A stretch of DNA of 64,000 nucleotides from assembly GCF_025144335.1 (NCBI RefSeq), contig NZ_CP083539.1, forward strand, positions 2,295,501-2,359,500, given 5' to 3'. Below, one piece after another: positions 26,958 through 42,337 of the stretch; positions within the stretch are counted from its first letter, which is position 1; every line of letters begins with the position of its first letter. The notes beneath the pieces are model-generated. The model saw only the letters and a program-made list of their open reading frames with translations, was not told the DNA's origin and ran no database searches. The translations under genes and the position numbers were made by a program. Source of the stretch: Jannaschia sp. W003. GTDB lineage: Bacteria > Pseudomonadota > Alphaproteobacteria > Rhodobacterales > Rhodobacteraceae.

Positions 26958-26976
26958 TCCGCCGGGGGGCCGGGCC

Positions 26977-27828
26977 TCAGGCCAGCGCGCAGGTGATCAC
27001 GGCGGCGTCCACGATGTCGTCCACCCGCGCGCCCCGGCTCAGGTCGCAGACCGGGCGGCGGAAGCCCTGCAGCACGGGGCCCACCGCCTGCGCGCCCGCC
27101 AGTTCCTGCGCCAGCTTGTAGGCGATGTTGCCCGCGTCCAGCGAAGGGAAGACCAGCACGTTGACCGCCTCCACCGCCACGCCCTTGCGCCGGCCCACCT
27201 CCGGGTCGAGAGCGGCGTCCGCCTGCACCGGCCCGGCGAAGCCGGTCGCCTCGGCGGCGGCGCGCACGGCGTCCACGCTCGGCCCCGTGCCGGACGTGCC
27301 GGTGGAGAAGCTGAGCAGCGCCACCTCGGCCCGTCCCAGCAGGCGCCGCGCGCTGGCGGCCGACGCCTGCGCGATGGCCGCCAGTCCCTCCGCGTCGGGC
27401 GCCACGGTCACGGCGCAGTCGGCCCAGATCATCTCGCGCCCGTCGCGCAGGCGCATGAGGAAGAACGACGAGGGCGCCGCGATGCCCTCGGCCAGCCCGA
27501 TGCCCATGGCGGCGGCCTCGATCACTCGACGCGTGGGCGCGTCGGCCCCGGCCACCATCGCGTCGGCCTCACCGGCGGCGACCATCGCCGCGGCGCGCAT
27601 CAGCGGCTTGCGCAGGAGCCGCCGGGCCATGCCCTCGGCCATGCCGCGCGCCTCGACCAGCGCGGCGACCTGTGCCTCGCTCGGCTCCGCCAGCGGCACG
27701 GCCAGGCACAGGCCTTCCGCGGTCAGCCGCGCGGCCGCCTCGGCCACCCGCGGCTCCGCCAGCTCGGGGAACACCACGCGCGCCGCGCGCCTCCGGGCCG
27801 CAGCCCTCGCCTCGTCCATCACGCTCAT
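26977..27828 (-). CDS. pta: Phosphate acetyltransferase (short EutD/Pta form)
   Basis: A 283-residue phosphotransacetylase without the N-terminal regulatory domains of long Pta. It converts the acetyl phosphate from Xsc to acetyl-CoA. Blocks are MVAGADAPTRRVIEA, FSTGTSGTGPSVDAV and NVLVFPSLDAGNIAYKL. The start is the ATG at 27828, with an alternative 9 nt further in. In other taurine degraders I recall pta co-directional with xsc; here it is inverted, tail-to-tail with xsc and only 18 bp from the start of a divergent citrate synthase. Confidence 0.93.
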   Translation of the reverse strand: MSVMDEARAAARRRAARVVFPELAEPRVAEAAARLTAEGLCLAVPLAEPSEAQVAALVEARGMAEGMARRLLRKPLMRAAAMVAAGEADAMVAGADAPTRRVIEAAAMGIGLAEGIAAPSSFFLMRLRDGREMIWADCAVTVAPDAEGLAAIAQASAASARRLLGRAEVALLSFSTGTSGTGPSVDAVRAAAEATGFAGPVQADAALDPEVGRRKGVAVEAVNVLVFPSLDAGNIAYKLAQELAGAQAVGPVLQGFRRPVCDLSRGARVDDIVDAAVITCALA

Positions 27829-27846
27829 CGCCCCGGGAGACCCAAG

Positions 27847-28980
27847 ATGACCGAGACCGTCAAGATCAACCGCGGGCTGAAGGGCATCTATTTCGAGCGC
27901 TCCGGCGTCAGCCACATCGACGGCGCGAAGGGCGAGCTGCTCTACCGCGGCCATACCATCCACGACCTCGCCGAGCACGCCACCTTCGAGGAGGTCTGCT
28001 ACCTGCTGATCCACGGCGACCTGCCGGACCGCGACGCGCTGGAGGCGTTCGACGCCGAGTTGCGGCAGGGCCGCGCCGTGCCGGACGCCGTGCTGGACGT
28101 GATCGCGACCTGCAAGGCGGGGCACCCGATGGACGTGCTGCGGACCGCCGTCTCGGCCCTTGCCGCGCTGGAGGACGGCACCGACGACGCATCCGAGGAA
28201 GGCTTCCTTCGCAACGGCATGCGCCTCATGGCGCAGGTGCCGACGCTGATCGCCGCCCACGAGGCGATCCGGAACGGTCGCGACCCCGTGGCGCCGGACC
28301 CCGCGCTGGGCCACGCCGCGAACTGGCTGTGGATGCTGAAGGGCGAGCGCCCGTCCGAGGACGCCGCGCGCCTCGCGGACGTGGACCTCATCCTCCACGC
28401 CGAGCACGGGGCGAACGCATCCGCATTCGCGGCCCGCGTGGTGGTGGGGACCGACGCCGACCTTCATGGCGCGATCACCGCCGGGCTCGCGGCCCTCGCC
28501 GGCCCGGCCCACGGCGGCGCCGCCGAGGACGTGATGAAGATGGTGCGCGAGATCGGCGCGCCCGAGAACGCAGCCGACTACGTGAAGGCGAAGCGCGCCG
28601 CGCGCGAGCCCGTCACCGGCTTCGGCCACCGCGTCTACCGCGCCGAGGACCCCCGCGCCCGCCACATGCGCGAGGGCGTGCGGAAACTGGGCGAGGAGAT
28701 GGGCGCGCCGGAATGGTACGAGATCCTCCAGGCCGTGGTGGAGGCGATGAAGCCCTACAGCCGCCACGGGCTGAACGTGAACGTCGATTTCTACTCTGGC
28801 GTGATCTACCAGCTCCACTCCATCCCGATGGACCTCTACGTGCCCATCTTCGCGATCGGCCGCATGCCCGGCTGGATCGTGCAATGCCTCGAGCAGCGGC
28901 GCCGCAACATCCTGATCCGGCCCCTGACGCTCTACGACGGCCCGGACGCGCGCCCGTGGGTGCCTCTGGAGGACCGGTGA
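27847..28980 (+). CDS. Citrate synthase (or 2-methylcitrate synthase)
   Basis: A 377-residue short-type citrate synthase. The catalytic His/His/Asp segments are LILHAEHGANAS, GFGHRVYR and NVNVDFYSG. It would condense acetyl-CoA with oxaloacetate; the short type also includes methylcitrate synthases, and sequence alone does not separate them. GGGAGA upstream is the ribosome binding site. Its divergence from pta across 18 bp places it at the end of the taurine carbon route, where acetyl-CoA is used. A main gltA may exist elsewhere. Confidence 0.85.
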   Translation: MTETVKINRGLKGIYFERSGVSHIDGAKGELLYRGHTIHDLAEHATFEEVCYLLIHGDLPDRDALEAFDAELRQGRAVPDAVLDVIATCKAGHPMDVLRTAVSALAALEDGTDDASEEGFLRNGMRLMAQVPTLIAAHEAIRNGRDPVAPDPALGHAANWLWMLKGERPSEDAARLADVDLILHAEHGANASAFAARVVVGTDADLHGAITAGLAALAGPAHGGAAEDVMKMVREIGAPENAADYVKAKRAAREPVTGFGHRVYRAEDPRARHMREGVRKLGEEMGAPEWYEILQAVVEAMKPYSRHGLNVNVDFYSGVIYQLHSIPMDLYVPIFAIGRMPGWIVQCLEQRRRNILIRPLTLYDGPDARPWVPLEDR

Positions 28981-29059
28981 GCGCCGCGTCCCGCCGCCGC
29001 GCCCCCTTTCGGGCGGCGCACCCGCGCGCTTACATGCGTGGCGCCGGAAGGGGACCGCT

Positions 29060-31888
29060 ATGACCGAGCCCGAGATCGACCTGCACCCCCGGACCGGCGA
29101 CGCGGTGCGCAAGACCACCTGCTACATGTGCGCCTGCCGCTGCGGGATCGACGTGCACGTCAAGCGCGACGCCGAGGGCGTGGAGCGCGTCGCCTACATC
29201 GACGGCAACCGCGATCACCCGGTGAACCGCGGCGTGCTGTGCGCGAAGGGCTCCGCGGGCATCATGCAGCACAACGCGCCCTCGCGCCTGCGCGCGCCCC
29301 TCAAGCGCACCGGCCCCCGCGGCTCCGGCGAGTTCGAGGAGATCACCTGGGACGAGGCCTACGAGATCGCCGTCGGCCTGCTGAAACCGATCCGTGAGAC
29401 CGACCCCTCGAAGCTCGCCTTCTTCACCGGGCGCGACCAGTCCCAGAGCTTCACCTCGTGGTGGGCACAGGCCTTCGGCACGCCCAACTACGCGGCGCAC
29501 GGCGGCTTCTGCTCGGTGAACATGGCGGCGGCGGGCATCTACACCATCGGCGGCGCCTTCTGGGAGTTCGGCCAGCCCGACTGGGACCGCACCAAGCTGT
29601 TCGTGCTGTTCGGCGTGGCCGAGGACCACGACTCGAACCCCCTCAAGATGGGCATCGGGCGGATCAAGGCGCGCGGCGCCCGCGTGGTCGGCGTGAACCC
29701 GGTGCGCTCGGGCTACAACGCGGTGGCCGACGACTGGTTCGGCGTCACCCCCGGCACAGACGGGCTGTTCATCCTCTCGGTGGTCCACTGCCTCCTGAAG
29801 GCGGGCCGCGTGGACCTGCCCTACCTGCGCGACTTCACCGACGCCCCCGTGCTGATCGACGCGCGCGAGGGGCCGACGAAGGGCTTGCCGCTGAAGGACG
29901 ACGACGGCCACGCGCTGGTCTGGTGCCGCCGGGAGCAGCGCCCCCGCTGCTTCGACGGCGACGGCGTGGACCCCGACCTCAACGGCGCGTGGGAGGACGG
30001 CGGCGTCACCCACCGCACCGTGTTCCACCACATGGCCCACAAGTATCTGCGCGCCGACTATGCCCCCGAGGCGGTGGCCGAGCGCGTCGGCATCCCCGCC
30101 CCCCGCATCCGCGCCTTCGCCGCCGAGATCGCCCGCGTGGCCTTCGACGAGGCCTTCGAGCTGGAGCGCGAGTGGACCGACTTCCGGGGCCGCGTCCACA
30201 AGACGATGCAGGGCAGGCCCGTCAGCTTCCACGCCATGCGCGGCATCTCGGCCCACGCCAACGGCTTCCAGACCTGCCGCGCGCTGCACATGCTGCAGGT
30301 GCTGATCGGCAGCGTGGAGGCGCCCGGCGGCTTCCGCTTCAAGCCGCCCTATCCCAAGCCGGCCACGGCGCACCCGAAGCCCCACGCGGGCTTCAACCCC
30401 GGCGCGCCGCTGAACGGCCCGCATCTCGGCTTCGTGCATGGCCCCGACGACCTCGCCCTGATGGAGGACGGCACGCCCGCGCGCATCGACAAGGCGTTCT
30501 CCTGGGAGAACCCCATGTCGGCCCACGGGCTGATGCACATGGTGATCTCGAATGCCCACGCGGGCGATCCCTACCGGATCGACACGCTGTTCCTCTACAT
30601 GGCGAACATGGCGTGGAACTCGTCCATGAACACGTCCGGCACCATGGCGATGCTGGCCGACACGAACCCCGACGGCTCCTACGTGATCCCGAACATCATC
30701 TACTCCGACGCCTACTCGTCGGAGATGGTGGCCTACGCCGACCTCGTGCTGCCCGACACCACGTATCTCGAGCGCCACGACTGCATCTCGCTCCTCGACC
30801 GCCCCATCTGCGAGGCCGAGGCCGCCGCCGACGCGATCCGCTGGCCCGTGGTCGAGCCGGACCGCGACGTGCGGGGCTTCCAGTCCGCGATGATCGACAT
30901 CGGCGCCCGCCTTGGCCTGCCTGGCTTCGTCAAAGACGACGGCAGCCAGAAGTTCGCGGACTTCGCCGACTACATGGTCCGCCACGAGCGGCGCCCCGGC
31001 GTCGGCCCCCTCATGGGCTGGCGCGGCGAGGACGGCGCGCAGACCGGGCGCGGGGCGCCGAACCCGGACCAGCTCGCCCGCTACATCGAGAACGGAGGCT
31101 TCGCGGTCGCGGACATCCCCGACGAGGCGCAGTTCATGAAGCCGTGGAACAAGGCCTATCAGGACTGGGCCGTGCGGATCGGCCTCTACGACAAGCCGAC
31201 CCCTTACCTCTTCACCCTATGGTGCGAGCCCCTGCGCCGCTTCCAGCTCGCCGCCGAGGGCTTTGGGGAGCGCCAGCCGCCCGACCACCTGCGCGCGCGC
31301 ATCCGCGAGACCTTCGACCCCCTGCCGATCTGGTGGGACCCGACCGAGGCGCACGGGACCGAAGCGCGCTTCGACACCGTGGCGCTGACCCAGCGCCCCA
31401 TGGCGATGTACCACTCCTGGGGCACCCAGAACGCCTGGCTGCGCCAGATCCACGGCCGCAACCCGCTCTACGTCCCCACCGCGATCTGGGAGCGCGAAGG
31501 GTTCCGCGAAGGCGACTGGGCCCGCGTCGCCTCGCCCCACGGCGAGATCGTCGTGCCCGTGGCCCACATGCCCGCCCTGAACGCCCGCACGGTCTGGACC
31601 TGGAACGCCATCGGCAAGCGCAAGGGCGCCTGGGCGCTCCACGACGACGCTCCGGAAGTGAACAAGGGGTTCCTCCTGAACCACCTCATCCACGAACTGA
31701 TGCCCCCCCGGGCCGACGGGATGCGCTGGTCGAACTCCGATCCGATCACCGGCCAGGCCGCCTGGTTCGACCTCAAGGTCGAGGTGCGCCACTGTCCCGC
31801 CCCCGCGGACGCCCGCAGCCAGCCCCACGTCGCGCCGCAGGCCAGCCCGGTGGGCAAAGGTCCGGAGGTCGTCGCATGGAAGGTCTGA
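29060..31888 (+). CDS. soeA: Molybdopterin oxidoreductase, SoeA-like sulfite dehydrogenase catalytic subunit
   Basis: A 942-residue DMSO-reductase-family protein. The N-terminal 4Fe-4S cluster ligands are CYMCACRC, then the later VLC, and a molybdopterin-binding C-terminal domain lies at about 770-920. There is no twin-arginine signal, so it acts in the cytoplasm, as SoeABC does. With the four-cluster ferredoxin and the membrane anchor that follow, it forms a quinone-reducing complex. Sulfite as substrate is inferred from the xsc neighbourhood and the family; thiosulfate or other reductases share this architecture. GGAAGGGG precedes the ATG. Confidence 0.8.
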   Translation: MTEPEIDLHPRTGDAVRKTTCYMCACRCGIDVHVKRDAEGVERVAYIDGNRDHPVNRGVLCAKGSAGIMQHNAPSRLRAPLKRTGPRGSGEFEEITWDEAYEIAVGLLKPIRETDPSKLAFFTGRDQSQSFTSWWAQAFGTPNYAAHGGFCSVNMAAAGIYTIGGAFWEFGQPDWDRTKLFVLFGVAEDHDSNPLKMGIGRIKARGARVVGVNPVRSGYNAVADDWFGVTPGTDGLFILSVVHCLLKAGRVDLPYLRDFTDAPVLIDAREGPTKGLPLKDDDGHALVWCRREQRPRCFDGDGVDPDLNGAWEDGGVTHRTVFHHMAHKYLRADYAPEAVAERVGIPAPRIRAFAAEIARVAFDEAFELEREWTDFRGRVHKTMQGRPVSFHAMRGISAHANGFQTCRALHMLQVLIGSVEAPGGFRFKPPYPKPATAHPKPHAGFNPGAPLNGPHLGFVHGPDDLALMEDGTPARIDKAFSWENPMSAHGLMHMVISNAHAGDPYRIDTLFLYMANMAWNSSMNTSGTMAMLADTNPDGSYVIPNIIYSDAYSSEMVAYADLVLPDTTYLERHDCISLLDRPICEAEAAADAIRWPVVEPDRDVRGFQSAMIDIGARLGLPGFVKDDGSQKFADFADYMVRHERRPGVGPLMGWRGEDGAQTGRGAPNPDQLARYIENGGFAVADIPDEAQFMKPWNKAYQDWAVRIGLYDKPTPYLFTLWCEPLRRFQLAAEGFGERQPPDHLRARIRETFDPLPIWWDPTEAHGTEARFDTVALTQRPMAMYHSWGTQNAWLRQIHGRNPLYVPTAIWEREGFREGDWARVASPHGEIVVPVAHMPALNARTVWTWNAIGKRKGAWALHDDAPEVNKGFLLNHLIHELMPPRADGMRWSNSDPITGQAAWFDLKVEVRHCPAPADARSQPHVAPQASPVGKGPEVVAWKV

Positions 31889-31901
31889 CCCCGATGCGCC
31901 C

Positions 31902-31950
31902 CTCATTTTGCCCGAAATACCTCGGGGGCCCGGGGGCGGAGCCCCCGGCG
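31902..31950. repeat. CTCATNTTGCC element with GC hairpin between soeA and soeB
   Basis: CTCATTTTGCCCGAAATACC starts at 31902 and is followed by CCGGGGGC (31930-31937), GGA, and GCCCCCGG (31941-31948), an 8-bp stem. The first part recurs at 15197-15223. It separates soeA and soeB within one operon, so it is either a mobile-type insertion or an mRNA processing/attenuation signal. Confidence 0.7.
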
Positions 31951-31973
31951 CTTCCCATATGCGGGACCAAGCC

Positions 31974-32774
31974 ATGACCGCCCTGCCCCCGCCGTCCCAG
32001 AAGAAGCTCGGCCTCGTCATCGACCTCGACACCTGCGTCGGCTGCCACGCCTGCGTGATCGCCTGCAAAGGCTGGAACACGCAGAACTACGGCGCGCCCC
32101 TCAGCGACCGGAACGCCTACGGCGACAGCGAGGGCACCTTCCTCAACCGCATCCACGCCTACGAGGTGCAGCCCGACCCCACCCTCGCCGAGGCCGTCCC
32201 CCCGCGCCTCGCGCAGACCGTCCACTTCCCGAAGTCCTGCCTCCACTGCGAGGACGCGCCCTGCGTCACGGTCTGCCCCACGGGCGCCTCCTACAAGCGC
32301 GCCGAGGACGGCATCGTGCTGGTGAACGAGGACGCCTGCATGGGCTGCGGCCTGTGCGCCTGGGCCTGCCCCTACGGCGCGCGCGAGGTCGACGAGCTGG
32401 CCGGCGTCATGAAGAAGTGCACCCTGTGCGTGGACCGCATCTACAATGAGACGCTGGAGGAGGTGGACCGCGTCCCCGCCTGCGTCCGCACCTGCCCCGC
32501 CGGCGCCCGCCACTTCGGCGACCTTGGCGACGCGGAGTCGGACGTCTCGAAGCTGGTCGCGGCGCGCGGCGGCGTCGACCTCATGCCCGAGCAGGGCACG
32601 CGCCCCGTGAACAAGTACCTCCCCCCGCGCCCCAAGGACACGCTCGGCGCCCCCGTGATGGAGGGCGACGAGGACGTCCTCGCCCCGTTCCTGGCCCCCG
32701 TCTACGCCGAGACCGGCGATGCCGAGCCGGCGGGCTTCCTCGGCTGGCTCGACCGGGCGCTGGAGCGGATCTGA
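31974..32774 (+). CDS. soeB: SoeB-like 4Fe-4S ferredoxin subunit
   Basis: A 266-residue protein carrying four CxxCxxC(x)nC clusters: CVGCHACVIAC near 22-32, CLHCEDAPCVTVC, CMGCGLCAWACP, and CTLCVDR with CVRTCPAGA. It relays electrons from SoeA to the membrane anchor. An in-frame ATG at 31959 is an alternative, but 31974 gives the usual N-terminus. Its TGA is 1 nt before the ATG of soeC. Confidence 0.9.
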   Translation: MTALPPPSQKKLGLVIDLDTCVGCHACVIACKGWNTQNYGAPLSDRNAYGDSEGTFLNRIHAYEVQPDPTLAEAVPPRLAQTVHFPKSCLHCEDAPCVTVCPTGASYKRAEDGIVLVNEDACMGCGLCAWACPYGAREVDELAGVMKKCTLCVDRIYNETLEEVDRVPACVRTCPAGARHFGDLGDAESDVSKLVAARGGVDLMPEQGTRPVNKYLPPRPKDTLGAPVMEGDEDVLAPFLAPVYAETGDAEPAGFLGWLDRALERI

Positions 32775-32775
32775 G

Positions 32776-33660
32776 ATGCACCCCGCGCCTTCCGTCATCC
32801 TCTTCTCGTCGCTCTCGGGCGCCGGCTTCGGCCTCCTGTTCTTCCTCGGCCTCATGCCCGACCCGCCGCGCGGCTGGGTGGCCTTCGTGTTCTTCCTGGT
32901 CGCCTACGCCCTCGCCGTGGGCGGCCTGCTGGCGGCCACCTTCCACCTCAAGAACCCCCGCAACGCCTGGAAGGCCTACCGCGAGTGGCGCACCTCGTGG
33001 CTCAGCCGCGAGATGTGGGCCGCCATCGCCGCGCTGCTGACCATGGGCCTCTACGCCGCCGCCCTCGTGTTCCTCGACCTGCACGTCGCCCCCTTGGGCT
33101 GGCTCGGCGCCGCGCTCTCGATGCTGACCGTGTTCACCACCTCGATGATCTACGCCCAGCTCCGCGCCGTGCCGCGCTGGAACCAGCCCGCGACCCCGGC
33201 GATGTTCCTCGCCTACAGCCTCGCCGGCGGCGCGCTGCTCGCCGGTCAGGCCACGCTGGCGGGCGTGCTCCTGCTCCTCGCCGGCGCGATAAACGTTTGG
33301 CATTGGTGGAAGGGCGACCGGCGCTTCGCCGAGGCCGGCACCACGATCCGCACCGCGACGCGCCTCGACGGCACCGTCACCCTGTTCGAGAAGCCCCACA
33401 CCGGCGACAACTACCTGACCCGCGAGATGGTCTTCACCGTCGCCCGCCGCCACGCCGCCAAGCTGCGGATCATTGCGATCCTCCTCGCCTCGCTGATCCC
33501 GGCGGCCATGATGCTGCTGACCCTGCACCACTGGACGGCGGCGGTGGCCGTCCTCCTCCACATCGCCGGCGTCGGCGTCGCCCGCTGGCTGTTCTTCGCC
33601 GAGGCCGAGCACGTGGTGGGCCTCTACTACGGCGCGCATCTGGACCGGCAGGCGGCGTAA
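32776..33660 (+). CDS. soeC: SoeC-like membrane anchor (DmsC/NrfD-type)
   Basis: A 294-residue protein with eight predicted spans, matching the DmsC-type anchor. HLKNPRNAWKAYREWRTSWLSREMW near residues 56-80 is the characteristic cytoplasmic loop. It anchors SoeAB to the inner membrane and passes electrons to ubiquinone. It ends the soeABC operon, and a 248-nt spacer with two small palindromes separates it from the next gene. Confidence 0.87.
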   Translation: MHPAPSVILFSSLSGAGFGLLFFLGLMPDPPRGWVAFVFFLVAYALAVGGLLAATFHLKNPRNAWKAYREWRTSWLSREMWAAIAALLTMGLYAAALVFLDLHVAPLGWLGAALSMLTVFTTSMIYAQLRAVPRWNQPATPAMFLAYSLAGGALLAGQATLAGVLLLLAGAINVWHWWKGDRRFAEAGTTIRTATRLDGTVTLFEKPHTGDNYLTREMVFTVARRHAAKLRIIAILLASLIPAAMMLLTLHHWTAAVAVLLHIAGVGVARWLFFAEAEHVVGLYYGAHLDRQAA

Positions 33661-33908
33661 GGCGCGACGCCGCTTTCGCGCAGACCTCTTTGAACGGACG
33701 GCCTTGGAATGCGCTGCGCGTGACAATGTCACCCGCTCCGCGCCGTCCTTCCCGGCGCCACGCGGACGGTGTGCCATTAGGCACCGCCGGCCAAATTCCT
33801 CCCGCAGCGCAAAGAGATCACCATAGCCGTACCTTGTTGCGGACAGAAAGGCGATCTAGTCCGCCGATGCCGGTTTCGCTCTCGCGACGCGTCCAGGAGG
33901 ATTGCCGA
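33661..33908. promoter_or_regulatory. Upstream region of the adenylation-acyltransferase fusion gene
   Basis: 248 nt with lower GC than the surroundings. Palindromes: GTGACA-A-TGTCAC (33720-33732) and GTGCC-ATTA-GGCAC (33771-33784). The first could be a repressor or activator site, the second a weak terminator for soeC. An alternative in-frame ATG at 33867 has no ribosome binding site. Confidence 0.45.
33895..33900 (+). promoter_or_regulatory. Ribosome binding site fixing the fusion gene start
   Basis: AGGAGG, a full Shine-Dalgarno, ends 8 nt before the ATG at 33909. This decides the start against the upstream ATG at 33867. Confidence 0.8.
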
Positions 33909-36605
33909 ATGCTCAACGACCATGGCTTCGGTCAGGACTCCCGTCGCGCACCCGCCGATTCCGCGGTCACCGAGCTGGGTGGCACCCGCGTCCTCGAAAT
34001 CGCCGCCCAGAGCTCGCACGACTTTCTCGACGCGGCGTTCGCAGCCTATGCGCGCCGGCAAGTCTTCGCGATCTCGCGGCCCGACACGTCGCTCCGCGGC
34101 ATGGTGGGTTCGGTCGAGCGGCTGGAGCTTCCCGAACGGCCCCGCCTCGGATGGGGCCATCCCTCCCACGAGCCGTCCGACGCGACGGACGCCGCGCAGA
34201 TCGTCTTCACCTCGGGCACCGAAGGCCCGCCGAAGGCCATCGTGCTTAGCCACCGCAATCTCGCCGACGTGGTGGAACGCCTCAACGCCATCATGGAACT
34301 GACCGGGGAGGTACGCGAGTACGTCGGCGTTCCGGTGACCTACTCCTTCGGCCTTGGGCGCGCGCGCGCCGTGGCGGCGGTGGGCGGCCAGATCTATCTG
34401 CCCGAACGGTTCGACCCAGCGGAGATCGGCCGGATGCTCGCGCGCGGCGAGATCAACGCCGCCTCGGCCGTGCCCTCGCTTTGGCGGCTCGTGCTCGCGA
34501 ACCGCGATGCGATCGGCGCCGCGGGTTCGCAGATGCGCTGGATCGAGATCGGCAGCCAGTACATGTCCGGCCCGGACAAGTCGGCGATGCGCGAACTCTT
34601 CCCCAACGCGCGGATCGTCCAGCATTACGGCCTGACCGAGGCTTCGCGCTCGACCTTCCTCGACGTCTCGCGTGCGCCCGAGATGCTTCTGGACTCGGTG
34701 GGCCGTGCGGCGGGATCGGTCGCGCTGAAGATCGCGCAGGACGGCGCCGTGCACATCCGCGGCGACCACATCGCCCTTGGACGCCTCGGACCGGGCGGCA
34801 CGGTCGTTCCGCTGACCGAAGGAGAAGGTTGGCTGGCCACACGCGATCGCGGCGAGATCCGCGAGGACCACCTCTGGTACCTCGGCCGCCTCGACGACCA
34901 GATCAACCTGGCGGGCATCAAGGTCGGTGCCGAGATGATCGAACGGGCGGTCGCCGAAATCGTACCTGCGGCTGCGGGGCGCATCGCCGCCGCCGCCCTC
35001 TCCGATCCCGCGCGCGGCGAGGTCGTCCTGCTGGCCTACGAGGAGGACACCGCACAGTTGGCCCCGGTCATTGAGGCCGCAGCGCGTACGGTGCTCGCGC
35101 GAAGAGGAATCGAAGCACCCGGAGCCCTCCGCGTCATGGCCGTGGACGCCCTGCCGCGCACTGGAACAGACAAGATCCGGCGCGCGGCGCTGCCGGCCCT
35201 GTGGGAAGAGATCCAAGGCGACGCGGTCGCCACGGATGTGACTCCGGGCGCGGACCTTACCGACGACGAAGCGCGCGTCGCGGCGGTGTGGCAGCGTGTG
35301 CTCGGACCGGTGCCGCTCTCGCCCGAATCCTCATACTACGATGCGGGGGGGGACTCGCTGTCCTCCGTCCAGATCGGCCTGGTGATGGAGGCCGAAAGGT
35401 GGTCGCGGAAATCGGTGCGCGCGACCCTCGAGGGCCGCACGATCGGGGAGATCGCAGGCTTGGAAGGGGTGGTCCCCTTCTCCGAAGAACCCTTGGGGGC
35501 CGATCCCGCAACCGCCGCACCAGCCCACGCGTCGGATACCCTGCCGGATCGGACCGTGCGCAACTGGTCGGTCTCGATCGCACGCGGGGTGATGGCCCTC
35601 TCCGTGCTCGTTTCGCACTGGGGTCCGGGCCTGTTCGGCGCACTCGGCGTCGGAGATTTCGTCGAACGCTGGTTCTCCACGATCTATCGCGCAGGCACAC
35701 CCGGCTTCGCCGCGGTGTTCGGCATCGGCGTCGGCTTCTACATGCTTCCGGACTTCGCGGCGCGGCGCGAAGGAATCTTCCGGCGCATGGCGACCTCGTT
35801 CCGCCTCGTTGCGACCGGCCTCGTACTGCTCGCCTTCATCGATCTCCTGAACGGATACATGGCCGGCGAACAGATCGGCACGCGCAGGTTCGCGAACGCG
35901 TTCTACGGAGTGCTGGCCTACTATGCCTTCATCCTCGGCACGGCTCGGTACTGGCTGCCGGCGCTGGCAGCGCTGCGCGACCCGCGCATCGTCCTCGTGC
36001 CGCTGGTTCCAGCGTTCTGGATCGCGTGGCAAGGCTCCGCGGTCATCCTGCCCGGTGATCAGTTCGACATTCTCGAGATCGCGCGCCTCATGGCAGGGCA
36101 AGGTGGTTACAACGTCTTCAAGATGACCATGGTAGCGGCGGCGGGAGCCGCGATCGGCTACTGGATCGCACGTCAGGACGATACCCGCGCATTGTCCGGC
36201 ACCCTCCTGCTGGGAGGGGGGTCCGCCGCGGCGCTCTGCTTCCTAGCGATGGGCCAGGTGGGAGGCTTCGACAACCTTGGCGATCGAGATAGTATGGCCT
36301 TCACCTCAGTACCCGGCCTGATGTTCTACGTCGCGGCCGCGGCGACGCTCATCGGCGGCGGGATGCGGATCCTGCCGTACTGGGAACGGCTCTCGCACGC
36401 GGTCCGTCTGCCCCTTAAGTTCCTCGTCGTCGCCGGCAGCTTGGCCCTGCCGATATACGTGCTGCACCAACTGGTCATTCCCGGACGCAACCTCCTGCTG
36501 CACGCCGGGTTGCCGAACCTTCCCGCACTTGCCCTGGCCATGTCGCTCTTCCTTACGGCGATGGGCTATGCGGGGCGCCGCTTGTGGCGAATGTACTTCG
36601 GCTAA
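33909..36605 (+). CDS. NRPS-like adenylation-carrier protein fused to an acyltransferase-3 membrane domain
   Basis: An 898-residue single chain in three parts. Residues 1-440: an AMP-forming adenylation domain with A3 TSGTEGPPKA at 101-110, A5 YGLTEAS, GRLDDQINLAGIKV near 324-337 and the A10 Lys in TGTDKIRRAAL. A3 lies about 70 residues earlier than usual, so the N-terminal subdomain is short. Residues 445-515: a carrier domain with the phosphopantetheine Ser483 in GGDSLSS. Residues 550-898: about ten spans starting ARGVMALSVLVSHW, like the OafA/AT3 acyltransferase entry with its His. There is no condensation or thioesterase domain. It probably activates an acid, loads it on its own carrier and transfers it across the membrane to an unknown acceptor. 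No biosynthetic neighbours; GC is visibly lower than flanks, suggesting transfer. Confidence 0.8.
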   Translation: MLNDHGFGQDSRRAPADSAVTELGGTRVLEIAAQSSHDFLDAAFAAYARRQVFAISRPDTSLRGMVGSVERLELPERPRLGWGHPSHEPSDATDAAQIVFTSGTEGPPKAIVLSHRNLADVVERLNAIMELTGEVREYVGVPVTYSFGLGRARAVAAVGGQIYLPERFDPAEIGRMLARGEINAASAVPSLWRLVLANRDAIGAAGSQMRWIEIGSQYMSGPDKSAMRELFPNARIVQHYGLTEASRSTFLDVSRAPEMLLDSVGRAAGSVALKIAQDGAVHIRGDHIALGRLGPGGTVVPLTEGEGWLATRDRGEIREDHLWYLGRLDDQINLAGIKVGAEMIERAVAEIVPAAAGRIAAAALSDPARGEVVLLAYEEDTAQLAPVIEAAARTVLARRGIEAPGALRVMAVDALPRTGTDKIRRAALPALWEEIQGDAVATDVTPGADLTDDEARVAAVWQRVLGPVPLSPESSYYDAGGDSLSSVQIGLVMEAERWSRKSVRATLEGRTIGEIAGLEGVVPFSEEPLGADPATAAPAHASDTLPDRTVRNWSVSIARGVMALSVLVSHWGPGLFGALGVGDFVERWFSTIYRAGTPGFAAVFGIGVGFYMLPDFAARREGIFRRMATSFRLVATGLVLLAFIDLLNGYMAGEQIGTRRFANAFYGVLAYYAFILGTARYWLPALAALRDPRIVLVPLVPAFWIAWQGSAVILPGDQFDILEIARLMAGQGGYNVFKMTMVAAAGAAIGYWIARQDDTRALSGTLLLGGGSAAALCFLAMGQVGGFDNLGDRDSMAFTSVPGLMFYVAAAATLIGGGMRILPYWERLSHAVRLPLKFLVVAGSLALPIYVLHQLVIPGRNLLLHAGLPNLPALALAMSLFLTAMGYAGRRLWRMYFG

Positions 36606-36766
36606 GTTGGCCGGGCCCGACGGGATCGAATCCAACCAGCAACCCCTACGATCGTCGTTGCGGTACCGCGGCGAGGCGTTGCCAGCGGACGTAGGTCCGG
36701 GGGCAAACACACGGTTCGAACGGGGTCATCCCGTGAACCGCTTCGAGGCTCCAACCCAGCCGAGCC

Positions 36767-36810
36767 TTGACCGAATCCCACCACCGTGAAAATCTCCCCC
36801 CAGATTTCAC
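36767..36810 (+). promoter_or_regulatory. Promoter and operator of the XRE-cupin regulator
   Basis: TTGACC at 36767-36772 is a good -35. About 17 bp later an inverted repeat GTGAAAATCT/AGATTTCAC (36786-36795 and 36802-36810, one base bulged) around six C covers the presumed -10 and start region. This is where an autorepressor would bind. The ATG follows 10 nt later. Confidence 0.55.
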
Positions 36811-36820
36811 GGGACACCCC

Positions 36821-37378
36821 ATGCCCACCGGCGACGACCTCCGCGCCCTGCGCCGCACCCGCGGCCTCACCCTCGCCGAGGCCGCCGGCCGCGTGGGCCG
36901 CTCCATCGGCTGGCTCAGTCAGGTCGAACGCGGCCGCTCCACCCCCGACCCGGACGACCTCGCCAGCTTGGCCCGCGCCATGGACGCCCCCCTGTCCCTC
37001 CTCGCCCCCCGCGGCCCCGAGGCCGAACGGGGCCGCATCGTGCGAACAGCCCACCGCCGCCCCCTCGGCGAGCGCGTCCTCGGCCTCACCGAATACCTCC
37101 TCTCCCCCGACCTCACCGACGGCTTCGAGGTGATCCACTCCACCTTCGCCCCCGGTGCTTGGCGCGACGACCCCGTCACCCGCGCCACCACCGAGATCGC
37201 CCACCTCGTCTCGGGCCGCCTCGACCTCACCATCGGCGGCGCCCCCTTCTCGCTCGCCCCCGGCGACACCGCCCGCATCCGCGGCGAGCCCTTCACCTGG
37301 GCCAACCCCTACCGGGAGCCGGCGGTCGCCATCTGGACCATCACACCCGCCCTCTACTCGCAGGACAGCCAATGCTAG
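36821..37378 (+). CDS. XRE family regulator with cupin domain
   Basis: A 185-residue regulator: helix-turn-helix at about 5-60 (LAEAAGRVGRSIGWLSQVERGRSTP) and a C-terminal cupin (about 115-180, with GRLDLTIGGAPFSLAPGD). Such proteins repress amine, polyamine or amino-acid catabolic genes and sense a small ligand through the cupin. The ATG at 36821 is preferred to one at 36767 that lies inside the promoter. It overlaps the first FAD-GcvT gene by 7 nt, so it most likely controls that gene and perhaps the next one. Confidence 0.88.
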   Translation: MPTGDDLRALRRTRGLTLAEAAGRVGRSIGWLSQVERGRSTPDPDDLASLARAMDAPLSLLAPRGPEAERGRIVRTAHRRPLGERVLGLTEYLLSPDLTDGFEVIHSTFAPGAWRDDPVTRATTEIAHLVSGRLDLTIGGAPFSLAPGDTARIRGEPFTWANPYREPAVAIWTITPALYSQDSQC

Positions 37379-39750
37379 ATCAGGCCCGCATCGTCATCAT
37401 CGGGGGCGGCGCCGTCGGCTGCTCGGCCCTGTGGCACCTCGCGAAGATGGGCCAGACCGACGCCCTCCTGCTCGAGCGCAACGAGCTGACCGCCGGCAGC
37501 ACATGGCACGCCGCCGGCAACTGCCCGACCTTCGCGGGCTCCCTCGGCGTGATGAAGATGCAGCGCTACTCCGCCGACCTCTACCGCCGGCTGGAGCGGG
37601 AGACCGGCACCCCCTTCACCTACAACGTCACCGGGTCCGTCCGCCTCGCCCACACCGAGGACCGGATGCGCGAGTTCGAGCACGTCCGCAGTTGGGGCCG
37701 CCGCGAGGACATGCCCGTGGAGATGATGAGCGTGGCCGACATCGAAGACGCTTACCCCTTCATCGAGACCCACGACCTCCGGGGCGGCTTCTGGGACGCC
37801 CACGACGGCGACGCCGATCCTGCCAGCCTGACGCAGGCCTTCGCCACCGGCGCCCGCGCCCTCGGCGCCCGCATCCGCCGCCACTCGGCCGCGACGGGTA
37901 TCCGCCGGGAAGGCGACGAGTGGGTGGTCGAGACGACGCAGGGCGACGTCCGCTGCGAGATCGTCGTCAATGCCGCCGGCTACTACGCCCAGCGCGTCGG
38001 CGCGTGGTTCGAGCCCTTCGGCGCCCGCCGTGTCCCGATGTGCGTGCTCCAGCACCAGTACCTGCTGACCGAAGAGATTCCCGAGCTGGAGGGGTGGACG
38101 CACGAGAACGGCCGCAAGGTCCCCCTCCTGCGCGACCCCGACGTCTCCTACTACCTGCGCCAGGAGAAGGCCGGCCTGAACCTCGGCCCCTACGAGCGCG
38201 GCGGCCAGGGCGCGTGGATGGACGGCTCGATGCCCGACGACTTCAGCTTCCAGCTCTACCCCGACGACCTCGACCGGCTGGAGCCGTACATCGAGGACGC
38301 CTGCGCCCGCGTCCCCCTGCTGGCCTCGGCGGGCATCAGCAAGGTCATCAACGGCCCCATCCCCTACGCCCCCGACGGCCTGCCGCTGGTCGGCCCCATG
38401 CCCGGCGTGCCGAACGCCTTCGAGGCCTGCGTCTTCACCTTCGGCATCGCCCAAGCGGGCGGCGCCGGAAAGGTGCTGGCCGAGTGGATCACCGAGGGCG
38501 CCACCGAGTGGGACATGTGGGCCGTCGACCCCCGCCGCTACGGAGGCCACCTCGGCCAGGACGCCGTAAATGCGCGCGGCCTGCAGGTCTACCGCCACGA
38601 ATACGCCATCCACCACCCCCGCCACGCCTGGCCCGCGGGCCGCGACCTGCGCCTCTCGCCCGTGGACGACCGCATCCGCGCCGCCGGCGGCCAGATGGGC
38701 AGCTTCGGCGACTGGGAGCGCGCCCTCTGGTACGCCCGCCCCGGCGACGACACGTCGGAAGCCGCCTCTGAAACCTTTGATCGGAAGGGCCCGTGGTGGG
38801 ACGCCGTGGCCGAGGAATGCGCCGCCGTGCGGGACTCCGTGGGCGTGATCGACATCTGCGGCTTCTCGCGCTTCAACCTCGATGGCGAGGGCGCCGCCGC
38901 GTGGCTGGAATCGAAGATGTCCGGCCGCCTGCCGAAGCCCGGCCGCGTGGGTCTCGCCTACTTCGCCGACCACCGGGGCCGCTGCGTGACCGAGATGAGC
39001 GTCATTCGCCACGGCACGGACCACTTTACCCTCATCACCGCCGCCGTGGCCCAGCTCCACGACCGCGACTGGCTGACGCGGGACATGCCCGAGGGCGTCA
39101 CCCTCACCGACCACACGGATGCCTTCGACACCCTCCTCGTCACCGGCCCCGAGGCCCGCGTCCTGCTTCAGCGCATCGCCACCGACTACGACCTCGCGAA
39201 GCCCTGGCTCACCCACGGCACGGCGACGGTCGCGGGCCGGCCCTGCCACCTCGTCCGCGTCAGCTTCGCCGGCGACCTCGGCTGGGAGATCCACGCCGCG
39301 AACGAGCACGTCCCCGCCCTCTGGGACGCCGTGTCCGCGGCGGGCGCCCGCCCCTTCGGCATGATCGCCCTCGACTCCATGCGGCTCGAGAAGGGCTGGC
39401 TCGCGTGGAAGCAGGACCTGTCCACCGACTACACCCTGCGCGAACTCGGGCTCGCGCGCTTCATGCGCGACCCCGGCCCCGAGCCGGAGCGCCGCCTCGC
39501 CTTGCTCCGCTACGAGGGCGACCTCGATCCCCTCTACATGGCGAACGTCAGCGCGGGCGGCGCGATCGTCGGCGAGGTCACCTCCGCCGGCTGGGGCCAC
39601 CGCAGCGGCATGGCCCTCGCCCTCGCCATGATCCCCGCCGGGCTGGACGAGGGCACGGCGCTCATCATCGACGTGTTCGGCGAATCCGTCCCCGCCAACG
39701 TCCTCGCCGGCCCCGCATGGGACGCCGACTTCGCCCGGATCCGCGCGTGA
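37372..39750 (+). CDS. FAD-dependent oxidoreductase with GcvT domain (dimethylglycine/sarcosine dehydrogenase type), paralogue 1
   Basis: A 792-residue protein. N-terminal DAO domain with the FAD fingerprint VIIGGGAVGCSALWHLA, and STWHAAG whose His is the covalent flavin site in DMGDH/SARDH; then an FAO-M linker, and GcvT plus GcvT-C domains from about residue 430 to the end. Such enzymes demethylate N-methyl amines and pass the one-carbon unit to tetrahydrofolate. The exact amine (dimethylglycine, sarcosine, another) is not readable. It overlaps the XRE-cupin gene by 7 nt and precedes a paralogue by 97 nt. Confidence 0.85.
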   Translation: MLDQARIVIIGGGAVGCSALWHLAKMGQTDALLLERNELTAGSTWHAAGNCPTFAGSLGVMKMQRYSADLYRRLERETGTPFTYNVTGSVRLAHTEDRMREFEHVRSWGRREDMPVEMMSVADIEDAYPFIETHDLRGGFWDAHDGDADPASLTQAFATGARALGARIRRHSAATGIRREGDEWVVETTQGDVRCEIVVNAAGYYAQRVGAWFEPFGARRVPMCVLQHQYLLTEEIPELEGWTHENGRKVPLLRDPDVSYYLRQEKAGLNLGPYERGGQGAWMDGSMPDDFSFQLYPDDLDRLEPYIEDACARVPLLASAGISKVINGPIPYAPDGLPLVGPMPGVPNAFEACVFTFGIAQAGGAGKVLAEWITEGATEWDMWAVDPRRYGGHLGQDAVNARGLQVYRHEYAIHHPRHAWPAGRDLRLSPVDDRIRAAGGQMGSFGDWERALWYARPGDDTSEAASETFDRKGPWWDAVAEECAAVRDSVGVIDICGFSRFNLDGEGAAAWLESKMSGRLPKPGRVGLAYFADHRGRCVTEMSVIRHGTDHFTLITAAVAQLHDRDWLTRDMPEGVTLTDHTDAFDTLLVTGPEARVLLQRIATDYDLAKPWLTHGTATVAGRPCHLVRVSFAGDLGWEIHAANEHVPALWDAVSAAGARPFGMIALDSMRLEKGWLAWKQDLSTDYTLRELGLARFMRDPGPEPERRLALLRYEGDLDPLYMANVSAGGAIVGEVTSAGWGHRSGMALALAMIPAGLDEGTALIIDVFGESVPANVLAGPAWDADFARIRA

Positions 39751-39780
39751 CCCGCCCCGCCGTGATGTGCCCCTGCGTAT

Positions 39781-39820
39781 GCACGGGGGGTGTACGGGGG
39801 GTGCACGGGGGGCGCCCCCC
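39781..39820. repeat. G-tract tandem repeat and GC palindrome between paralogues
   Basis: Three 11-bp units of the form GYACGGGGGGT give G6 tracts at 39785-39790, 39796-39801 and 39807-39812, followed by CG and C6 (39815-39820), so the last tract is a perfect GGGGGGCGCCCCCC palindrome. Such tracts can form a quadruplex or a strong hairpin in the mRNA. Confidence 0.7.
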
Positions 39821-39847
39821 TGAATCCAGTGCTCTGGAGGCCCTCCG

Positions 39848-42277
39848 ATGACCCCTCCCACCACCGCCCGCGTCGTCGTCATCGGCGGCGGCGTCGTTGG
39901 CTGCTCGGTCGCCTATCATCTGGCGAAACTCGGGTGGAATCCGGTACTTCTGGAGCGAAAGCGCCTCACCTCCGGCACCACATGGCACGCCGCCGGCCTC
40001 ATCGCCCAGCTCCGCGCGACCCCCGCCATGACGCGGCTGGCCAAGTACAGCCAGGAACTCTACGGCACCCTCGAATCCGAGACCGGCGTCGCCACCGGCT
40101 TCCGTCGCTGCGGCTCCATCACCGTCGCGCTAACCCCCGCCCGCGCCGAGGAAATCCGCCGCCAGGCCGGCATGGCCCGCGCCTGGGGCGTGGAGGTCGA
40201 GGAGATCGGCGCCGCCGACGTGAAGGCCTGCTACCCACACCTGCGCACCGACGACGTGCAGGCCGCCGTCTGGCTGCCGAAGGACGGTCAGGGCGACCCC
40301 GCCAACATCGCCCACGCGCTGGCCAAGGGGGCGCGCCAGAACGGCGCGCAAGTGTTTGAGAACACGGCCCTGACCGGCGTCCGGCGGCAGGGCGACCGCG
40401 TCACCCACGTCGAGTGGCGGCAGGGTGAGGACACCGGCACCATCGCCTGCGATCACGTCGTCAACTGCGGCGGCATGTGGGCCCGCGACCTCGGGTGGAT
40501 GCTCGGCGCCAACGTCCCCCTACAAGCCTGCGAGCACTTCTACATCGTCACGGAAGCCATTGAGAACCTTGGAACGCTGCCCGTCCTGCGCGTCCCCGAC
40601 GAGTGCGCCTACTACAAGGAAGACGCGGGCAAGATGCTGCTCGGCGCCTTCGAGCCGGTGGCGAAACCGTGGGGTCCGATCCCCGAGGACTTCGAGTTCG
40701 ACCAGCTCCCCGAGGACTTCGACCACTTCGAGCCGATCCTGGAACGCGCCGTCGCCCGCATGCCGATGCTGGAATCCGCCGGCATCCACACGTTCTTTAA
40801 CGGTCCCGAAAGCTTTACCCCCGATGATGCGTACCACCTCGGACCGTGCCCCGGCACGGCCAACGTCTGGGTCGCGGCGGGCTTCAACTCCATCGGCATC
40901 CAGTCCGCCGGGGGTGCGGGGCTGGCGCTCTCGCAGTGGATGGAGGGCGGCGAGATGCCCTTCGACCTTGTGGACGTCGACGTCGCCCGGATGGAGCCGT
41001 TCCAGGGCAACCGCCGCTACCTGCGCGAGCGGGCGAGCGAGACGCTGGGCCTGCTCTATGCGGACCACTTCCCGTTCCGCCAGAAGGCGACGGCCCGGGG
41101 CGTGCGCCGCTCGCCGATCCACCGCGAGCTGCTCGACCGCGGCGCGGTGATGGGCGAACTGGCCGGCTGGGAGCGCGCCAACTGGTTCGCCCGCGAAGGT
41201 CAAGCGGCTGTCTACGACTACGACTGGCACCGCCCCGCGTGGTGGGAGAACCGCCGCGCGGAGCACATGGCGGTGCGCGAGGGCGTCGGCCTCTACGACA
41301 TGTCCAGCTTCGGCAAGCTGCGCATCGAGGGCCGCGACGCCCTGCGCCTCCTCCTCATCGCCTGCGGCGCCGAGATGGACGTCGCCGCGGGCCGCATCGT
41401 CTACACCCAGATGCTCAACGCCCGCGGCGGCATCGAGGCCGACGTCACCGTCACCCGCCTCTCCGAGACCGCCTTCCTCATGGTCACCCCCGCCGCCACC
41501 CGCCTGCGCGACGAGACCCGCCTGCGCCGCCTCGCGGGTAACATGGCGGTCACGATCACCGACGTCACGGCCGGCGAGGCGGTGATGGCCGTGATGGGCC
41601 CGGACGCCCGCGCGGTGCTGGCCGATGCCTGCGCGGACGACATGAGCGACGCCGCGCAACCCTTTGGAACGGCACGGAACGTCGAGCTGGGCCTCGGCCT
41701 CGCGCGCCTTCACCGCGTTTCCTACGTAGGCGAGTTGGGCTACGAGGTCTACGTCTCCGCCGACATGGCCGCCCATGCCTTCGAGACACTCGTGGCGGCA
41801 GGCGATCCGCACGGGCTGCGCCTCGTCGGCCTCCACGCCATGGACACCCTGCGCATGGAGAAGGCGTTCCGCCACATGGGCCATGACATCACCCCCGAGG
41901 ACCACGTCGTCGAGGCCGGCCTAGCCTTCGCCTGCCGCAAGTCGGGCGACTACGTCGGCGCGAATGCGGTTGCCGCCAAGCGCGAGAGCGGCCCCGCCCG
42001 CCGCCTCCTTCAGTTCCGCCTCCGCGACCCGGAGCCCGAGCTGCACCACGCCGAGCCGATCCTGCGCGACGGCGAGATGGTCGGCCACCTCACCTCGGGC
42101 GGCTACGGCCATGCCCTTGGGGCGGCCGTGGGGCTGGGCTACGTGCCCTGCGCGGGGGAAAAGGTCGCAGACTTGGTCGCCAGCCAGTGGGAGATCGAGA
42201 TCGCCGGAACGCGCGTGGCGGCGGAGGCGTCGCTCCGCCCGATGTACGACCCTACCGGCGAGCGCATGCGCGCCTGA
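39848..42277 (+). CDS. FAD-dependent oxidoreductase with GcvT domain, paralogue 2
   Basis: An 809-residue protein with the same domain order as the preceding gene: FAD fingerprint VVIGGGVVGCSVAYHLAKLG, TTWHAAG with the flavin-linking His, FAO-M, GcvT (NARGGIEADVTVTRL) and GcvT-C ending near SLRPMYDPTGERMRA. The two differ widely in sequence, so they probably handle different substrates or successive demethylations. The ATG at 39848 lies after a GGAGG ribosome binding site. Two perfect hairpins follow its stop. Confidence 0.87.
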   Translation: MTPPTTARVVVIGGGVVGCSVAYHLAKLGWNPVLLERKRLTSGTTWHAAGLIAQLRATPAMTRLAKYSQELYGTLESETGVATGFRRCGSITVALTPARAEEIRRQAGMARAWGVEVEEIGAADVKACYPHLRTDDVQAAVWLPKDGQGDPANIAHALAKGARQNGAQVFENTALTGVRRQGDRVTHVEWRQGEDTGTIACDHVVNCGGMWARDLGWMLGANVPLQACEHFYIVTEAIENLGTLPVLRVPDECAYYKEDAGKMLLGAFEPVAKPWGPIPEDFEFDQLPEDFDHFEPILERAVARMPMLESAGIHTFFNGPESFTPDDAYHLGPCPGTANVWVAAGFNSIGIQSAGGAGLALSQWMEGGEMPFDLVDVDVARMEPFQGNRRYLRERASETLGLLYADHFPFRQKATARGVRRSPIHRELLDRGAVMGELAGWERANWFAREGQAAVYDYDWHRPAWWENRRAEHMAVREGVGLYDMSSFGKLRIEGRDALRLLLIACGAEMDVAAGRIVYTQMLNARGGIEADVTVTRLSETAFLMVTPAATRLRDETRLRRLAGNMAVTITDVTAGEAVMAVMGPDARAVLADACADDMSDAAQPFGTARNVELGLGLARLHRVSYVGELGYEVYVSADMAAHAFETLVAAGDPHGLRLVGLHAMDTLRMEKAFRHMGHDITPEDHVVEAGLAFACRKSGDYVGANAVAAKRESGPARRLLQFRLRDPEPELHHAEPILRDGEMVGHLTSGGYGHALGAAVGLGYVPCAGEKVADLVASQWEIEIAGTRVAAEASLRPMYDPTGERMRA

Positions 42278-42281
42278 CCCC

Positions 42282-42304
42282 GCAAACTCTTCCGAAGAGT
42301 TTGC
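42282..42304. terminator. Perfect 11-bp hairpin after FAD-GcvT paralogue 2
   Basis: GCAAACTCTTC (42282-42292) and GAAGAGTTTGC (42294-42304) around one C. It lies 4 nt after the stop codon of the rightward gene and before the stop of the leftward carboxypeptidase gene, so it can act on both transcripts. Confidence 0.75.
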
Positions 42305-42308
42305 CCCC

Positions 42309-42334
42309 GCCATTTCCTTGCCGAAGGAAATGGC
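42309..42334. terminator. Second perfect 11-bp hairpin, same gap
   Basis: GCCATTTCCTT (42309-42319) and AAGGAAATGGC (42324-42334) around GCCG, 4 nt beyond the first hairpin and 3 nt before the end of the leftward gene. Both are much less GC-rich than the other palindromes in the window. Confidence 0.75.
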
Positions 42335-42337
42335 CCC

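Follow-up and report, generated by a model that had tools for sequence, protein, structure and literature searches.

What does a single gene do when it encodes both the activation of an acid and a membrane transferase? This question is raised by a gene of Jannaschia sp. W003 within a stretch of 64,000 nucleotides (contig NZ_CP083539.1, positions 2,295,501 to 2,359,500; hereafter the window). Its 898-residue product joins an adenylation (A) domain, a carrier domain and a membrane domain modelled with the fold of the transmembrane acyltransferase (TmAT) superfamily. We propose that this single chain activates an acid and transfers it, as an acyl group, out to an extracytoplasmic exopolysaccharide (EPS) acceptor, and put the probability of this reading at about 0.6. 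The A domain would form an acyl-adenylate from a carboxylic acid and ATP, as its intact ANL motifs suggest, and the acyl group would then be taken over by the carrier, on the thiol of the phosphopantetheine attached to Ser483. Tethered by a flexible linker, the carrier would present the loaded arm where the ten-helix TmAT domain opens to the cytoplasm; other members take up acyl-CoA at this place, and the counterparts of Arg559 and His570 lie on the acyl-CoA path there. Finally, judging from the gene neighbourhoods of relatives, the acyl group would be placed on a hydroxyl or amine of an extracytoplasmic polysaccharide or lipid-linked repeat; the polysaccharide would be made by an XrtD-linked EPS cluster, which in this strain lies on another contig.

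Activation, carrier and membrane domain on one chain

The reading frame ends at 36605 and stays open upstream as far as 32985; ATG at 33909 is favoured as the start because AGGAGG sits 8 nt before it. Pfam matches AMP-binding (6.7e-26, aa 78-278) and PP-binding (2.6e-5, aa 456-517), with no further match at E ≤ 0.1, so condensation and thioesterase domains are absent, as a preliminary description of the gene had said. The same description had noted TSGTEGPPKA (aa 101-110), GGDSLSS (aa 480-486) and a membrane part beginning ARGVMALSVLVSHW (aa 558-571), all of which are found there, and its count of about ten spans agrees with ten hydropathy peaks in the C-terminal part. In a full-length structure model (predicted local distance difference test score, pLDDT, 87.5; predicted template modelling score, pTM, 0.55) the individual domains are well folded, with low-confidence linkers at aa 438-448 and 522-541; the mutual placement of the domains is not fixed by the model.

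A protein search among candidates of 0.55-1.75 times the query length that shared words with the query gave 669 matches at E ≤ 0.001. Among the best 120 of these 669, 119 are longer than 820 aa, the window's own protein included. Setting aside that protein and one of 693 aa (for its length) leaves 118 listed close homologues, 44-56% identical to the window protein. All 118 have the same domain order, so the layout is not due to chance, and all include the membrane domain, contrary to the possibility that most homologues end after the carrier. Of the 131 columns with at least 98% conservation among them, the window protein keeps 130. A scan of a genome collection by the patterns QHYG[LM]TEA or YSFGLGR[AVI]R returned 153 relatives; the best 80 of 153 come above all from Rhodobacterales, and also from Chlorobium, Methylophaga, other gammaproteobacteria, sphingomonads, cyanobacteria and Planctomycetes. 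With loci in groups from Rhodobacterales to Chlorobium, Methylophaga, cyanobacteria and Planctomycetes, the fusion is widespread, and the single-chain layout is more general than the window alone reveals.

The C-terminal part of the relatives is of one of two types, either long, as in the window, or shorter, at about 290 aa. A tree built on 72 A-domain rows places the window in a set of 25 (100/100), made up of 22 named Rhodobacterales rows, the window, and two loci of its genus (L004 and L005); its position within the set is not resolved. Both L004 and L005, and a third locus (L094), have the short membrane type joined to A domains of the Rhodobacterales set, which suggests that the membrane module has been exchanged between relatives. 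Among 20 genomes of the genus, three have the A-carrier part at E ≤ 1e-60, two of them with the shorter membrane domain, and the full-length fusion form occurs in the window's genome only. The fusion is a new combination of known parts; a literature search, with most subscription journals outside its coverage, found no published description of it.

Predicted fold of the membrane domain

The structure model shows the ten helices of the TmAT fold. In the first transmembrane helix (TMH1), Arg559 and His570 are kept in 118/118 listed homologues, so the C-terminal part does not lack all AT3 catalytic residues. In a wider set of 75 relatives, Arg is found in 73 and His in 72, the exceptions being L039 (Arg at 570), L081_284 (another, 2022-aa protein) and L084 (a thioesterase). 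These two counts are unfiltered. Of two smaller alignments, one (A1) took 25 of the 120 by hand, and the other (A3) comprised the window and 38 of 44 candidates prefiltered for Arg559, His570, Trp571, strand and length, so that invariance there is built in. The FxxxxG of TMH2, matched by motif without superposition, has Phe600 in 118/118 and Gly605 in 117/118 (wider set: Phe 62/75, Leu 10; Gly 75/75). Likewise matched by motif, Tyr850 of TMH9 is Tyr in 112 and Phe in 6 of the 118 (45 and 26 of the 75), and the His853 column holds His in 115 and Gln in 3.

Stricter tests count against the assignment. The Asp of DxxR in TMH1 is Ser556 in the window protein, and the column holds Thr (62), Asn (33), Ser (19), Gly (3) or Ala (1) in the 118. 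The aligned TMH3 segment of the window protein has no [RK]xxR, the counterpart of the AT3 RxxR. Its C-terminal part alone has no Pfam match at E ≤ 10, and the whole protein is unmatched by the AT3 model PF01757 (cut-off 31 bits). A profile comparison with five neighbour AT3 proteins was not significant (probability 0.5%), yet it aligned the Arg and the His; a sequence search of the PDB with the profile gave no match; and the top Foldseek match, HGSNAT, had a probability of 0.99 but an E of 0.06. Among relatives, PF01757 matches 11 of 39 alignment members at E ≤ 1, and three of ten scanned whole (L077, L083 and L063) exceed its cut-off. According to PMC12423673 (papers are cited here from the portions available to us), GWT1 is also without DxxR and the Asp appears dispensable in OacB; because of these precedents the missing Asp is not taken to exclude the TmAT fold. 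As modelled, the membrane domain is of the TmAT fold, though it does not reach a strict AT3 match. The by-eye AT3 call of the preliminary description is upheld by structure, relatives and Arg-x10-His.

Carrier or acyl-CoA as the donor

The attachment residue Ser483 is kept in 118/118 listed homologues and 75/75 of the wider set. A handover from carrier to TmAT domain is suggested by the retained fusion and by two kinds of relatives. In the first kind, four (L067) or three (L070, L075) carriers precede the TmAT domain, every one with its Ser (in L075 by motif only). Repeated carriers within one chain are 60-91% identical as protein and 61-90% as DNA; since each has the Ser at such identities, assembly copies or decay are unlikely. 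A further locus cut by a contig end, L080, also has three carrier motifs. A TauD-family gene is found at most two genes away from the fusion in L067, L070, L071, L075 and L080 (family checked for L067), and oxidation (hydroxylation) of the carrier-bound acid is possible. In the second kind, L084 of Methylophaga lonarensis, the same A-carrier part is followed by a thioesterase (PF00975) in place of the TmAT domain, which may be an alternative way of unloading the same carrier. We give even odds to a TmAT fold fed by a thioester on one or more carriers of the same chain, and not by free acyl-CoA, in a one-gene machine that would put acids other than metabolic acyl-CoAs onto exopolysaccharides, perhaps sometimes with three or four carriers in a row and oxidation on the carrier.

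The TmAT domain may instead draw ordinary cytoplasmic acyl-CoA, with the A-carrier part used for a different step, such as loading the substrate of a diffusible enzyme. A review names acyl-CoA, not acyl carrier protein (ACP), as the AT3 donor (PMC9558356). Arg559, whose TMH1 counterpart is linked to CoA binding in other members (PMC9833829), is retained, as is Arg626 in 118/118 listed homologues, and 33/52 long-type fusions have [RK]xxR in TMH3; all this speaks against the carrier as donor. Yet that motif is present in only 34 of 73 fusions and missing in 39, the window included, and in 20/21 of the short type. The retained fusion and the tandem carriers also fit a carrier donor better, and apart from sugar-polymer genes no carrier-using enzyme recurs within two genes of the fusion in more than five loci. 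We hold direct use of acyl-CoA to be distinctly unlikely.

The carrier needs a phosphopantetheinyl transferase. Four loci have an Sfp-type gene no more than two genes from the fusion (one checked), a further point for a carrier that feeds the membrane domain. In the window's genome PF01648 has a single match, which looks by eye like an AcpS and is flanked by pdxJ- and lepB-like genes, a point unfavourable to the proposed mechanism. The three functional units named in the preliminary description do lie on one chain; its word self-contained is too strong, because this enzyme and an acceptor made elsewhere are required.

Probable nature of the acid

The window protein has the motifs which we take to be A3, A5, A7 and A8, together with the Lys that we label A10, as in ANL enzymes. 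Its A domain is short, as had been noted: 100 residues precede A3, the first ~20 at low model confidence, and in many structure matches the solved enzyme is already at residue 45-61 where the alignment reaches model residues 24-26. In a pairwise alignment with LgrA, Gly148 occupies the expected place of the amino-group-binding Asp (D235 of GrsA) of nonribosomal peptide synthetase domains for alpha-amino acids, and for this reason a plain alpha-amino acid is an improbable substrate. Gly148 is found in 118/118 listed homologues, as are Arg151 and Arg153 nearby. In the wider set each occurs in 72-73/75, counts that are partly built in because YSFGLGR[AVI]R was a search pattern; those over the 118 are sounder. 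We know of no such Arg pair in amino-acid codes. These residues speak against an A-carrier part that loads an amino acid for an aminoacylation system like Dlt or Alm, which we judge quite unlikely. In its favour, LgrA and a beta-aminoacyl-ACP synthetase are among the closest sequence matches of solved structure, and Gly148 does not exclude an amino acid because McyG accepts Phe with Val in place of the Asp (PMC11253843), which also tells against our reading.

Exopolysaccharide loci and the probable acceptor

We compared 55 loci of at least 20 kb, 51 of them typed (40 long-type, 11 short-type); genes were called by our own script, with some anchors mis-called. A glycosyltransferase-type gene (clusters 1, 3, 5, 7, 14, 21, 35 and 44; members or C7 homologues of the first four checked by family models, the rest named by eye) lies within 10 kb in 35/40 long-type and 5/11 short-type loci. 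A particular GT2 gene (c3) occurs in 16/40 and 2/11 and is at most two genes away from the fusion in 12 loci; a WecG/TagA-type gene occurs in 15/40 and 2/11, and a membrane-protein cluster resembling a polymerase (by eye) in 13/40 and 2/11. Exosortases (cluster 4, checked via its member on contig C7) are found in 18/40 long-type loci, a figure without matched control; at two per 3.4-Mb genome, one would fall in about 1.3% of stretches of 22 kb.

The window's genome has two exosortases. The one on the 63-kb contig C7 is XrtD (TIGR04152, 619 bits). This contig also holds a c3 gene, 72-78% identical to relatives' c3 genes in its best three matches, glycosyltransferases that resemble EpsA, EpsE and EpsH most but score under the cut-offs of those models, a VPLPA-CTERM protein, and genes that look by eye like those for chain-length proteins. 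The second exosortase, of XrtD type, adjoins homologues of clusters c15, c29 and c8. In a survey of 295 genomes, one per genus, the C-terminal domain was found in four, all with XrtD, vs XrtD in 71/295 (68 over cut-off). The co-occurrence is small (3/3 excluding the window's genome, chance about 0.013), and with at most six candidates scored per genome absences are soft. Fusion and XrtD share a contig in two of the four (G169 and G292) and lie on different contigs in G316 and the window's genome. Within the genus, XrtD is present in 15/20 genomes, including all three with the A-carrier part.

Other alphaproteobacteria depend on AT3 proteins to assemble polysaccharides (PMC11340318). Because many relatives sit in EPS or exosortase loci and the genome has its own XrtD cluster, the acceptor, earlier given as a surface glycan, lipid or secreted molecule, can be narrowed to extracellular polysaccharide or its lipid-linked precursor, the likeliest acceptor on this gene-context evidence. 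For the same reason the gene is no orphan. The claim that no neighbours make or use a product is right for the window, whose other called genes match none of the glycan or exosortase clusters, and wrong for the genome and most relatives.

Three findings are unfavourable to an EPS acceptor: short-type loci have no exosortase (0/11), 5/40 long-type and 6/11 short-type loci have no glycosyltransferase cluster, and in this strain fusion gene and EPS cluster are on different contigs. The same chemistry might serve another acceptor, be it a lipid of the membrane, a small molecule that is exported or a protein processed by an exosortase. The 11/51 typed loci without a glycosyltransferase cluster and the XrtD and VPLPA-CTERM protein in the genome are compatible with this, and the fold leaves the acceptor open, as the superfamily is taken to include GWT1/PIGW (inositol of glycosylphosphatidylinositol) and TraX (pilin) (PMC12423673). 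Considering, however, that 35/40 long-type loci have glycosyltransferase clusters and that compiled AT3 functions concern sugar-containing structures (PMC9558356), we think a different acceptor unlikely. Near the fusion in Roseovarius and relatives, nine loci hold a protein of ~1200 aa (cluster c17; L024:4138-7734 and eight others); that of L024 has G8, PA14 and Ig-type domains and is a possible surface partner.

Comparison with known systems

Dlt (DltA, DltC, DltB, DltD) is a close functional parallel: an ANL ligase charges a carrier there, and membrane proteins bring the acyl group to a polymer outside the cytoplasm (PMC4792211). Dlt differs in its separate genes, in the D-Ala substrate of DltA, and in DltB, an MBOAT protein of another fold (PMC12423673), whereas the fusion has the predicted TmAT fold on one chain. 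By analogy the fusion would work like Dlt; it is no Dlt system, having neither an MBOAT DltB nor a DltD. AlmEFG of Vibrio cholerae, for lipid A glycylation, also feeds a surface modification by an ANL enzyme and a carrier. It has separate genes and a different transferase, AlmG. Unlike the fusion, AlmE keeps the Asp (D247; PMC11253843).

Among AT3 and TmAT proteins, OafB, OatA and stand-alone Oac share the ten-helix fold, Arg-x10-His, FxxxxG and surface glycan acylation, but use acyl-CoA as donor. Human lysosomal HGSNAT uses acetyl-CoA and no carrier, and has Asn where AT3 proteins and the fusion have His (PMC12423673). PrmO and UppZ are AT3 proteins of alphaproteobacterial polysaccharide pathways, needed for EPS or polysaccharide assembly and proposed to act on a lipid-linked intermediate; the available portions of PMC11340318 describe no built-in activation. 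The AT3 fusions named in the available portions of PMC9558356 and PMC12423673 involve SGNH, NRF and racemase domains, none with ANL or carrier, and "AMP-binding" or "adenylation" was not found in them. Both papers treat acyl-CoA as the donor there. TIGR03098 (acyl-CoA ligase associated with exosortase A), also exosortase-linked by name, is the second-best NCBIfam match of the A domain (99 bits, aa 91-278), far below its 592-bit cut-off; with only 517 positions, this model has no room for a TmAT domain.

If the proposed mechanism is true, there would be a second way of feeding the TmAT fold beside acyl-CoA, which would explain how rarer acids reach exopolysaccharides and would offer a one-gene testable model of transmembrane acyl transfer from a carrier. 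The fusion is also a gene marker in EPS loci for uncharted glycan decorations.

Arrival of the gene at this site

A GC content of 68.0% vs 72.5% for the window agrees with the lower GC noted before, and the GC content at third codon positions (GC3) is 0.831; across 36 other called genes of the window it averages 0.948 and its lowest value is 0.855. Genes of C7 have a mean GC3 of 0.878. In one congener (G005) the flanking DmsC-like and HTH-cupin (helix-turn-helix) genes are about 100 bp apart: nucleotide matches cover window 29056-33641 and 36829-42865, with small gaps, and skip 33642-36828, so that a 3.1-kb segment with the fusion gene is absent. The G005 region differs from the window in more than one place, since the citrate synthase stretch (window 26963-29055) has no nucleotide match either (about 1.1 kb there). 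Insertion is a more economical account of the G005 difference than loss, and the chromosome probably gained the gene through an insertion. This empty-site argument rests on one genome because, of six other genomes with a match to the HTH-cupin gene, only G005 has it beside the DmsC-like gene; in the other five it lies elsewhere. The horizontal transfer suggested in the preliminary description thus gains from the G005 site and the deviant GC3.

It might be supposed that the gene reached this strain recently and does not function in it, the carrier not being activated or the acceptor lacking. The segment's absence from a congener, the single PF01648 match and the EPS cluster on another contig would agree with that; the intact reading frame, the good ribosome-binding site, the near-complete set of conserved columns and the XrtD EPS cluster in the genome make it very unlikely.

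Table 1. Features of the fusion gene, its relatives and its surroundings. Plain coordinates are window positions; those with a prefix refer to the named locus.
Feature	Coordinates	Strand	Basis or remark
Coding sequence of 898-aa A-carrier-TmAT fusion protein (P0001)	33909..36605	+	118 full-length homologues listed
Ribosome-binding site AGGAGG, 8 nt 5' of ATG	33895..33900	+	read directly
Adenylation (ANL) domain, aa 25-433, N-terminally short	33981..35207	+	
A3 motif TSGTEGPPKA, aa 101-110	34209..34238	+	Lys109 invariant
A4 region YSFGLGRAR, aa 145-153	34341..34367	+	Gly148 at LgrA Asp place; Arg151 and Arg153 in 118/118
A10 catalytic Lys422	35172..35174	+	118/118 listed homologues, 75/75 wider set
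Carrier domain, aa 452-519	35262..35465	+	PF00550 24.8 bits vs cut-off 20.8; phosphopantetheine Ser483 at 35355-35357
Low-confidence linker, aa 520-546, carrier to first membrane helix	35466..35546	+	pLDDT under 50 at 522-530 and 532-541
Predicted ten-helix TmAT/AT3-fold domain, aa 547-898	35547..36602	+	hydropathy, structure model
Arg559-x10-His570, first membrane helix	35583..35618	+	motif as in PMC9833829
FxxxxG (Phe600, Gly605), second helix by motif	35706..35723	+	motif as in PMC12423673
Tyr850 and His853 (LPIYVLH), ninth helix by motif	36456..36467	+	
Tandem-carrier relatives	L067:9968-13378, L070:9944-13126, L075:9950-13156		
TauD/TfdA-family dioxygenase gene of tandem-carrier relative	L067:8988-9956		
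A-carrier-thioesterase protein of Methylophaga lonarensis	L084:9974-12217		glycosyltransferase-rich locus
XrtD/VPLPA-CTERM EPS cluster, own genome, separate contig C7	L098-L100		
Stand-alone AT3 (PF01757) gene, contig C7	L100:9074-10204		
AMP ligase gene, contig C7	L098:3416-4921		
Second XrtD-type exosortase, chromosome-size contig C1	L101:9061-10614		497 bits to TIGR04152
Stretch without counterpart in G005 (about 100 bp there), holds fusion gene	33642..36828	+	blastn blocks both sides
Flanking DmsC-like membrane subunit gene, outside the system	32719..33660	+	PF04976; match in 20/20 genus genomes
Flanking HTH-cupin regulator gene, start uncertain, outside the system	36767..37378	+	match in 7/20 genus genomes

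Upstream of the fusion gene, window 29060-33660 holds molybdopterin oxidoreductase, 4Fe-4S and DmsC-like genes, which we presume may encode the sulfite dehydrogenase SoeABC.

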